Assembly (NCBI GenBank): GCA_032622095.1
Contig: CP136061.1
Span: 167,219,107-167,283,106 of the forward strand
Direction: 5' to 3'
Length of the DNA stretch: 64,000 nucleotides
Source: Siphonodentalium dalli
Lineage: Eukaryota; Mollusca; Scaphopoda; Gadilida; Siphonodentaliidae
The position numbers and the translations under genes were made by a program. How positions within the stretch are numbered: the first letter of the stretch is position 1; every line of letters starts with the position of its first letter. Shown here one piece after another: positions 60,951 through 64,000 of the stretch. The notes under the pieces were generated by a model. It worked only from the letters and a program-made list of their open reading frames with translations, made no database searches and was not told the origin of the DNA.

Positions 60951-61190
60951 TTGAGAATATGGAGTACCGGTAATGGACTCAATCATTCACAATCAGAGGG
61001 AAGGAAGTGTAGTAGATTTGGCAGTCCGGCTGAAGTGCACATGCGCGGGATAACACCGGCAGAGATAATTACCACGCCGACCAACAATCACTACGACCTG
61101 CTTGCTCGATATAAATCCATCAGCATCATCCCATCCTCGTCGCCACAAGATACCATTATAGGGATGGTTGACACCGATGAAAAACAATGA
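60951..61190 (+). pseudogene. Upstream segment of the KptA/TatD composite block
   Basis: The 79-codon frame (CSRFGSPAEVHMRGITPAEI, then TTPTNNHYDLLARYKSI) resembles the low-complexity region that precedes functional domains in retroelement Gag-like proteins. The stop at 61190 is 12 bp upstream of the next frame, and a decayed continuous reading is likely. No domain is recognised. Confidence 0.35.
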
Positions 61191-61202
61191 TGGGGTCTAG
61201 AA

Positions 61203-62027
61203 ATGAGCCTGGAAGACACTAGCCATCCCCGATGGCTGTTGAAAGCACGACAGGGCCATAGTGACACCATGCCAGTGACAGAGGAGGGGCTATGCCCTGC
61301 TACACTAGAGACCTGCCCAGCGGCAGTGCATGGCACATTCTACCGCCACTGGGAAAGCATTAAAGCCCAGGGACTGAGCCGGCGGAAACGGAAGCATATT
61401 CACTTTGGCCACGATGATAAAGTCTTGGGAGTGGGGGCAAGAACCAACGCCGAAATACTTATGTATCTGGACGTACCCCAGTGCCTGGAGGGAAACAGAA
61501 TCCCAATATTTCTAGCTGAAAATGGGGTTATCCTAAGCCCGGGAAATAGGGATGGCTTTATCCCCATGCCCTTTTTCCACCGAGTGATTGATCGCCAGAC
61601 GGGGACGACAATATGGAAACCCCTGGAACTGCCTGTCCCATCCAGGAGGGATAGCGTGGAGATGCCCATCATCGAATCCGACTCCGACAGTGAGAGGGAA
61701 GATCAATCAGTCAGTCAACAAAAGCAGCTGGAAATGCCATCTGTGATGGCAACGAGTGGGAGAGATAAAGGTGACATCCAGAAATTGCTGGGGGTGACCC
61801 AAACAGGGCAATTAGAAGAATCCATCACCCCGATGGAAGTAGATCCACCCTCGGAGTCTAGAGTAGACCCACCAACGATAGACCCACCAACGATAGACCT
61901 CGGCAACGGAGGCGCACTAGGAGATCCATCACCGATGGACCCTAATGTGATCGGTCGACAGCTCAGAACTGAGATTGCTAGGGAGATATCTCAAAGGAAG
62001 GGGTGGCACAGGTCATACAGGACATGA
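61203..62027 (+). pseudogene. KptA/Tpt1-like RNA 2'-phosphotransferase domain
   Basis: Residues 11-135 match the ADP-ribosyltransferase-fold lobe of KptA/Tpt1: LKARQGHS (cf. IRANQGHS), AVHGTFYRHWESIKAQGLSR (41-60), RKHIHFGH, GVGAR (SGxR position), EILMYLDV and LAENGVILSPGN (104-115). Tpt1/KptA removes an internal RNA 2'-phosphate using NAD+, giving ADP-ribose 1''-2'' cyclic phosphate. The N-terminal winged-helix part with its LRHxP arginine is absent from this frame. A long acidic, Pro/Ser-rich tail follows (SDSDSERED, DPPTIDPPTID). Downstream sequence continues in other frames, so it looks like part of a larger decayed protein. Confidence 0.72.
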
Positions 62028-63117
62028 CCAGCAATGAAAACCTGCTACCGGCAGCCATCCTTTTCCAGATCCTTTACGGAAGACCCGGCTTCATGTTAAA
62101 GGAAAAGGCCAATATAGACTGGCGCTAAGATTAGAGAAGCTCTCGTGGATCGGCGCAGCGAGGCAGGAGGGAGAGTTCTATCACTCCAACACATGGAACT
62201 CTATACACCTCCAGTACACCATCAAGAAGGACGTGCGGCTAAGGGTGGTAGGAGGGGCAGAGAGAGTTCTCTATATGAAGGACACAGCTATGGAAACCTC
62301 ATCATTTGTCATGGACCTAAAACCGGTAGAGTCGATGGAGGTAACCCCACAACCCAGCCATCCACAGAAGCCAGGGAGATCTGCGAAAGGGACTTCAGGG
62401 AAGTCACAACCAAATGCTGCACAGACCCTGACATATGGGAAGTCTCAGCCTCAACAGGCGCCTGTAAAGCGGAAACAGACTTCACCGAAGTCGCAGCAGC
62501 AGGTCTCGCAGACTTCAGGGACTTTGGTTGAGACTTCAGTGAAGTCCCAACCAAAGTCGAGGCAGTCTCAAATTTCAGACAAACAGACTTTACCGAAGTC
62601 TCAGCAACCGGTCTTGCAGACCTCAGGGACTTTGGTTGAGACTTCAGTGAAGTCCCAACCAAAGCCGAGGCAGTCTCAAATTTCGGAAAAATTTCAGGCA
62701 TCCTGCCCAGACCCCAGAAAACCATCTCTGGTAAGAACAAAGATTATGGACCGGGGCCACAAGAGGGCAGCATCGCCAGTCACTACCGGCGAACCGAAGA
62801 GGAAAGGCCGAGCCACATGTGGGGTGTGTGGAGACCATGTAAACCACGGCAGGGGGCACATGGAACGACAGCATCTACCCCCGGTGCTGTGGGAGTATCG
62901 CCCCAGTTTCAGCAACGCTCCAAGACCAACGGCGGGACAACAACTGACTGCACTGACCAAAATTGCTAAGGCTACTCCCAGAATTAGCACGAGATGGGTG
63001 CTTCACGGCTCAAGCCCAGATCTCCGATGTACAAACAAAAGCAATGAAGGAGTTGTGCCGGACAGCGGGTTGGCCCGTGCCACATCAGTTGGTACTTTAT
63101 CCCCAGCCGAACAGTAG
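62024..63117 (+). pseudogene. Middle domain, SQPKSQ repeats and zinc finger
   Basis: After a frame change, MTSNENLLPAAILFQILYG runs to 62130. A second change leads to LEKLSWIGAARQEGEFYHSN, then TWNSIHLQYTIKKDVRLRVV and the frame 62233-63117. That frame has two 36-residue repeats (108-bp period, from about 62477 and 62585; SGTLVETSVKSQPK). It then has a basic stretch and a finger CGVCGDHVNHGRGHMERQH (C196, C199, H209, H214). The order suggests one ancestral protein. The function of the middle domain is unknown to me. Confidence 0.5.
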
Positions 63118-63276
63118 GGCCATCCTCCTCCATTGAGAGCTCTCGGGTGGATGCTGCGGCAGATGAGTACAAGGGACTTCAACCAATACCAACGAACACA
63201 AGAGACAGTAGCACAAGACTGGTTGAACCGATACCGTCCCTTGGATGCCAGCAATGCTCCGCCAACCGGAACCGGA

Positions 63277-63490
63277 GGTAATCCTTCGGTGAAGGACACC
63301 GAAAGAAGCCGGGAAAGAGATCGCTCTAGGACGGAGTTAAAGATAGTCCGGGGTAATCCGGTGAAGGACACCGAAAGAAGCTGGGAAAGAGATCGATCCA
63401 GGCCGGAGTTGAAGATAGTCAGAGGTAATCCTTCTGTGAAGGACACCGAAAGAAGCAGGGGAAGAGATCGATCCAGGCCAGAGTTGAAGA
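63277..63490 (+). repeat. Three ~72-75-bp coding repeats
   Basis: In the same frame as 62233, the charged motif VKDTERS.ERDRSRPELKIV occurs three times (from about 63290, 63362 and 63437). It is an RD/RS-rich tandem repeat. The frame continues open to about 63780. Confidence 0.7.
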
Positions 63491-63659
63491 GAGTGGCAAC
63501 CTCGTCCGAAAATGAGTCGCAATCAGCTCACCCGTCTTCCGCGAAGGCATTACAAAACCGGCAAGCCAGAGAACCAATGACCGGAACCAGGGACGACCAG
63601 ACACAAAGAGAGGAGCTAACCTCAAAGAAGGCGACAGGGCCACCACCTTTAGGGAAGGC

Positions 63660-64000
63660 AATAACGAAACCGGGACATTTAGAAATGGTAATCACCTCAA
63701 AAGGGCAGAAGAGGTCAAGGCCATGGAGTCAACCAGGGAAGAAGTGCTCCTGTGGGCAGTTGACTCCCATTTCCACATGGACCGGCTTCGACAGAGAGTC
63801 AAGCAAGGCAATCGGGGATCCCTGCAAGAGTTGCTGGAATTATGCCCAGCCCCAGGGACCAAGATCAGGCTTTGGGGGCAGGTTAGGGTATACTGTGACC
63901 CGGAGTCGTACCCTACGGAGGAAGAAACATGGGAGGCCAATACCAGAGTGGCAGTGGGCTTACACCCCAAACGGGCCGGGAAAATTACATCGGAGGAAGA
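63660..64000 (+). pseudogene. TatD-type metal-dependent hydrolase, N-terminal part (runs off window)
   Basis: In a third frame are WAVDSHFHMDRLRQRVKQG, with the HxH metal site (DSHFH), then LELCPAPGTKIRLWG, VYCDPESYPTEEETW and RVAVGLHPKRAG, which matches the conserved G-x-HP strand of TatD. TatD proteins are 3'-5' exonucleases or deoxyribonucleases on DNA and RNA, usually about 260 residues; only ~110 are in the window. The frame differs from the preceding repeats, so a frameshift lies around 63660-63720. Confidence 0.65.

Follow-up and report, generated by a model that had tools for sequence, protein, structure and literature searches.

A decayed KptA-finger-TatD open reading frame in Siphonodentalium dalli, assigned to a family of Ty3/Gypsy-type LTR retrotransposons with a putative RNA-directed accessory protein

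The end of a 64,000-nucleotide stretch of the genome of the scaphopod mollusc Siphonodentalium dalli (GenBank assembly GCA_032622095.1, contig CP136061.1, positions 167,219,107 to 167,283,106 of the forward strand; hereafter the window) contains remnants of a KptA/Tpt1-type RNA 2'-phosphotransferase, a C2H2-type zinc finger and a TatD-type nuclease, which lie in that order on the plus strand, occupy three reading frames and are split by stops and indels. Based on comparison with related copies in the same genome, this feature is a decayed copy of the third open reading frame (ORF3) of a multicopy Ty3/Gypsy-type long terminal repeat (LTR) retrotransposon. The following parts were distinguished:

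61008..61131, plus strand: LTR fragment starting with TGTAGTAG and preceded by a purine-rich stretch; about 94% identical to the beginning of the LTR in a related copy
61146..61571, plus strand: KptA/Tpt1 RNA 2'-phosphotransferase domain, N-terminus missing, internal stop (PF01885 and alignment)
62030..62215, plus strand: remnant of domain X (comparison with locus L024)
62400..62700, plus strand: SQPK-type low-complexity repeats (open reading frame list, internal repeats)
62818..62880, plus strand: C2H2-type finger, C-x2-C...H-x4-H-LP..W, a motif that recurs in ORF3 of all nine families sampled
63100..63145, plus strand: block Y (NSRAILLH), broken by an indel; motif common to most families
63270..63510, plus strand: RD/RS-rich repeats (open reading frame list, self-comparison)
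63759..64000, plus strand: first part of the TatD nuclease domain, which runs on to 64577 (PF01026, E 9.7e-38)

An earlier sequence-only reading of the window had recognized a KptA-like domain, a C-x2-C...H-x4-H finger and the start of a TatD hydrolase, placed in order on one strand and in different frames within a GC-richer block, and had proposed that they derive from a single ancestral protein broken by frameshifts. The KptA-like domain was recovered with PF01885 in Pfam (window 61191-62027, E 2.3e-23) as well as in the genome-wide search, which placed it at 61146-61544 (profile 49-177, E 1.8e-23) with one internal stop. The finger is located between KptA and TatD, and the PF01026 match begins at 63759 in the whole-genome profile search; when the sequence was read beyond position 64000, the TatD domain proved to be complete to window coordinate 64577 (C1:167282865-167283683, profile 1-253). 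The GC content is 0.53 in this copy and 0.38 in the whole window, and the proposed ancestral protein has its counterpart in undecayed relatives, which carry KptA, finger and TatD in one ORF3.

The nearest relative among the copies read, located on another contig, is 93.9% identical over 4.3 kb, and about 10 frame-breaking indels were counted in the window copy. Its KptA domain is truncated at the N-terminus, the 124-bp LTR fragment (61008-61131) being joined directly onto the middle of KptA, meaning that the copy lacks gag, pol and the beginning of ORF3. In addition, the premature stop in KptA coincides in the alignment with the third residue of the catalytic tetrad. The second LTR lies at about window 65129-65348, approximately 1.1 kb beyond the window end, and is 96% identical to the 61008..61131 fragment. 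Since this downstream LTR continues into a primer binding site and then into another pol, the arrangement resembles a tandem with the window copy as its left member.

The suggestion of a multicopy mobile family was borne out by searching the whole source genome (2.23 Gb, 9 contigs), which contains 83 KptA matches, many of them within open frames of 894-1492 amino acids. TatD was found downstream on the same strand in at least 31 of the 54 best KptA matches, a lower bound as 150 of the 529 TatD candidates were scored. Around ORF3 of undecayed copies, LTRs, gag, pol and target duplications were identified, including the linked reverse transcriptase and the flanking repeats that the earlier reading had proposed to look for: a Gypsy pol lies directly upstream of ORF3, and paired LTRs bracket the copies. 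Decayed KptA copies are also clustered at C6:168.57-168.85 Mb, C5:201.66-201.68 Mb and C6:75.15 Mb, as in transposon graveyards or piRNA-type (PIWI-interacting RNA) clusters.

The undecayed plan consists of an LTR, gag, a pol encoding protease, reverse transcriptase, RNase H and integrase (in part with a plant homeodomain, PHD, finger), KptA-finger-TatD in the position of the envelope (env) gene, and a second LTR. In the open frame of locus L028 the Pfam order of pol is protease 134-221, reverse transcriptase 720-879, RNase H 942-1070 and integrase from 1458; upstream of ORF3 the modules are protease, reverse transcriptase, RNase H, H2C2 and rve, plus the PHD finger in most families, and gag with a CCHC knuckle lies further upstream. 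No envelope domain was detected in ORF3 by Pfam, the third frame being (KptA)-finger-TatD. In four families the LTRs measure 508, 278, about 208 and 228 bp, their pairs are 99-100% identical, and the insertions are flanked by 4-bp target duplications (ACTA, ATAG, ATAC and TTAC); judged by these features, such copies are recent insertions. The LTR termini are TG..CA or TG..TA, and a polypurine tract of the GGGGAGGAG type precedes the 3' LTR. A WKGP-type motif in the integrase, recognized by eye only, reads GPG in most families and GPY in family I. By its paired LTRs, pol order, tRNA primer site and polypurine tract, the carrier is assigned to the Ty3/Gypsy-type elements (Metaviridae). The PHD finger was found at the integrase C-terminus in loci L022, L023, L025, L035, L036 and L037 and is lacking in family I; by analogy with chromodomains, it is a possible chromatin-targeting module. 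Gag starts with a short helix-hairpin-helix-like motif, GIGRKRADILLYNR, in L033 (element strand 2665) and L029 (element strand 694), a feature unusual for Gag that corresponds to a weak Pfam HHH match (0.036).

Eight further TatD-bearing loci were read; the sample comprises nine families (A-I). Where pol was included in the stretch read, it is followed by an ORF3 composed of the finger, usually block Y (an NSxAxLxHWR motif present in most families) and a C-terminal TatD. TatD was present in all nine families, and KptA in four of them (A-D) at differing positions within ORF3; thus, in this sample TatD, rather than KptA, is the clade-wide component. Most ORF3s of the clade also share domain X, which spans about 65 amino acids and looks helical; its profile matches families A (4e-6) and C (3e-8), both outside the model. 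Domain X precedes KptA in family A, follows it in B and C, and was not detected in D. In the integrase tree A is joined with D and B with C, both with good support, which together with the differing order of domain X and KptA suggests that KptA was captured more than once or moved. For KptA, this tree requires 1-2 changes, and a single KptA clade was not rejected by the approximately unbiased test (p 0.35). A family D copy, L039, has an internal deletion that fuses pol and ORF3 into one frame of 2082 amino acids.

Both enzymes retain their catalytic residues. Full-domain PF01885 matches in families A-D range from 1e-32 to 8e-48, and the Arg-His-Arg-Arg tetrad of Tpt1 (PMC6333775) is invariant in these families (R21/H22/R68/R151); the TatD metal-ligand motifs D-x-H-x-H, E, H, H and D are kept in all nine. 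The ratio of nonsynonymous to synonymous substitutions (dN/dS) was 0.18 for KptA (confidence interval 0.10-0.29; family A vs a diverged relative) and 0.11 for TatD (0.07-0.18; two members of family F), and on these values the two ORF3 domains are under purifying selection. The best match of the element KptA in PDB is 7yw3, a tRNA 2'-phosphotransferase 1 of the animal TRPT1 type (E 1e-28), and the element domain groups with eukaryotic TRPT1 enzymes; introns interrupt the TRPT1 gene of the host, and the element KptA is intronless. The element TatDs are separated in the tree from two host TATDN-like genes. Two loci, L042 and L043, contain short TatD frames of about 300 amino acids with a CCCH-like finger, distinct from the element TatDs, and look like host TATDN2-type genes from their sequence.

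Primer binding sites were compared with tRNA-Ser genes taken from the same genome, those found being reported without introns. The site after the LTR that follows the window copy matches the 3' end of tRNA-Ser(AGA) at 17 of 17 positions, CCA included; that of family A matches tRNA-Ser(UGA/CGA) at 15/15 and that of family D tRNA-Ser(GCU) at 10/10, and the match to tRNA-Ser(AGA) is partial (about 12-13 of 17) in family B and in the remaining family C copy. From these matches the clade appears to keep a serine tRNA primer while changing isoacceptor. Large tandem tRNA arrays lie at C8:163268362-163380660 (L057) and C8:109079059-109176050 (L052-L056): in one array a unit of roughly 1.7 kb, carrying tRNA genes for Ser, Leu, Thr and Arg, is repeated more than 30 times, and another is a Lys-Ser-His-Asp array. 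As regards expression of ORF3, most of the nine families have a polypyrimidine-AG acceptor-like site after the pol stop and before the ORF3 frame (combined p 1.4e-6 when compared with other windows in these loci); it is individually significant in B, F, H and I. The site is a probable splice acceptor of a separate mRNA for ORF3, in keeping with an env-like spliced message.

TRPT1 adds ADP-ribose as a cap to 5'-monophosphate RNA, and this cap blocks XRN1 and translation (PMC9458441), Tpt1 removes 2'-phosphates (PMC6333775), and TATDN2 is an RNase that degrades RNA in R-loops (PMC10707325). Because both enzymes have relatives whose targets are RNA ends, we favour, with moderate confidence, the interpretation that the window feature is a decayed copy of an ORF3 whose intact form would be an accessory enzyme with the RNA and the RNA:DNA intermediates of the element itself as its inferred substrate. 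On this view, RNA in hybrids would be trimmed or cut by TatD while reverse transcription proceeds or once it is over, much as by the human relative TATDN2. KptA would use NAD+ on RNA ends, either to cap 5'-monophosphates with ADP-ribose or to take off 2'-phosphates that host RNases leave behind; this modification could protect the element RNA from decay, and the finger would possibly supply nucleic-acid binding. One particular scheme, which we consider doubtful, is that the Tpt1 domain ADP-ribosylates the genomic RNA as a cap against 5' decay and translation, steering it to packaging, with the fused TatD making or trimming the ends.

Several observations weigh against an auxiliary role of ORF3 on the element's own RNA. 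No RNA ligase is encoded by the element, which therefore has no complete repair pathway; KptA occurs in only four of the nine families and is not essential to such elements; and the true substrate may be host RNA. As to the proposed spliced expression, the acceptor of families A and E does not exceed chance expectation, and family D alone has a convincing splice donor.

The first alternative is classical RNA healing, in which KptA would strip 2'-phosphates from cleaved tRNAs or element RNA for resealing by a host ligase. In phages KptA is accepted to have this role, and the same has been proposed for some animal RNA viruses (PMC9503650); the intact Tpt1 tetrad agrees with it. However, neither a ligase nor a 2H phosphoesterase was found by Pfam in the ORF3s scanned, and the animal enzyme additionally caps 5' ends (PMC9458441), so the reaction could be either. 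We regard healing as rather unlikely. A host-directed function, by which ORF3 would ADP-ribosylate or cleave host RNAs or consume NAD+ and so suppress decay, silencing or translation, would suit a separate and probably spliced frame, and viral ADP-ribosyltransferase domains often aim at host molecules (PMC9503650). Yet the site kept is the Tpt1-type tetrad for RNA 2'-phosphates and not a fast-evolving effector-type site, and TatD and the finger, retained in every family, are nucleic-acid enzymes or binders, making this function unlikely.

Another idea is that TatD trims a cleaved half-tRNA and KptA removes its 2'-phosphate to leave a usable 3' OH; in its favour, TatD and Tpt1 are both RNA-end enzymes, and half-tRNA primers occur in copia-like elements. 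Maturation of such a primer is disfavoured and, in our judgement, very improbable: at up to 17/17 positions the primer sites agree with tRNA-Ser 3' ends that are intact, CCA included, so KptA is not needed for this step, and no introns were reported in the tRNA-Ser genes found. Retroelements commonly capture genes and the window copy itself has decayed, but host fragments captured by chance and now drifting are hardly credible with dN/dS values of 0.11-0.18 (upper limits below 0.3), catalytic residues intact across divergent families and intact ORF3s in copies with identical LTRs.

To our knowledge, LTR retrotransposons and retroviruses have been thought to depend on the host for RNA-end metabolism. 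The elements described here form a retrotransposon clade that keeps a nuclease in all sampled families, part of which added an NAD+-dependent RNA-end enzyme, and the element KptA offers a natural experiment, under selection, on the role of animal TRPT1 and on RNA ADP-ribosylation. Transposon ORFs may also underlie many of the TATDN2-like gene models annotated in invertebrates. In the giant squid, a gene named TATDN2 is present among transposon-derived genes within the Hox cluster (PMC6962438); it may be the ORF3 of an LTR element of the TatD-bearing type.

The sequence-only reading knew of no described protein or element with this combination, and in the open-access literature, as far as the texts available extend, none was found for a mobile element and no LTR retrotransposon is described with KptA or TatD cargo; Repbase and the subscription literature were outside this scope, and priority is thus uncertain. 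Papers naming TatD together with LTR retrotransposons, or KptA together with retrotransposons, looked unrelated. Search of IMG/VR viral contigs with TatD and KptA profiles gave no relatives. KptA has been reported in sawfly baculoviruses, a Beihai picorna-like virus and a Botrylloides nidovirus, which are, like the present elements, selfish genetic elements of animals; these are RNA or DNA viruses, and the available portions of the reports mention no reverse-transcribing element and none with TatD (PMC9503650, PMC3230848). Compared with cellular TRPT1/Tpt1/KptA, the element KptA shares the catalytic tetrad and fold family but is intronless and placed inside an ORF of about 950-1490 amino acids with the finger and TatD; similarly, the element TatD has all the metal-ligand motifs of TATDN2 and other TatD nucleases but is fused to the finger and block Y. 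Troyka elements are also LTR elements of marine invertebrates long classed as Gypsy, but their termini are CG..CG, their target duplications measure 3 bp and they lack an envelope ORF (PMC12440569); membership in this group is ruled out by the TG..CA or TG..TA termini and 4-bp duplications found here. The closest parallel is provided by the Juno and Vesta LTR elements of bdelloid rotifers, whose ORF3 encodes a DEDDy 3'-5' exonuclease or a GDSL esterase with a proposed role in RNA 3'-end processing, and whose enzymatic ORF3s are family-specific, were acquired more than once and show no significant departure from neutrality (PMC5408684). An enzymatic ORF3 in LTR elements is therefore already known, and it is the KptA-finger-TatD cargo that was found described nowhere in the open-access literature. 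Both groups are retrovirus-like LTR elements with an enzyme as ORF3; in contrast to Juno and Vesta, the S. dalli elements combine TatD, an unrelated metal-dependent nuclease fold, with the NAD+-using KptA, carry nuclease, finger and KptA in a single ORF and display purifying selection between subfamilies.
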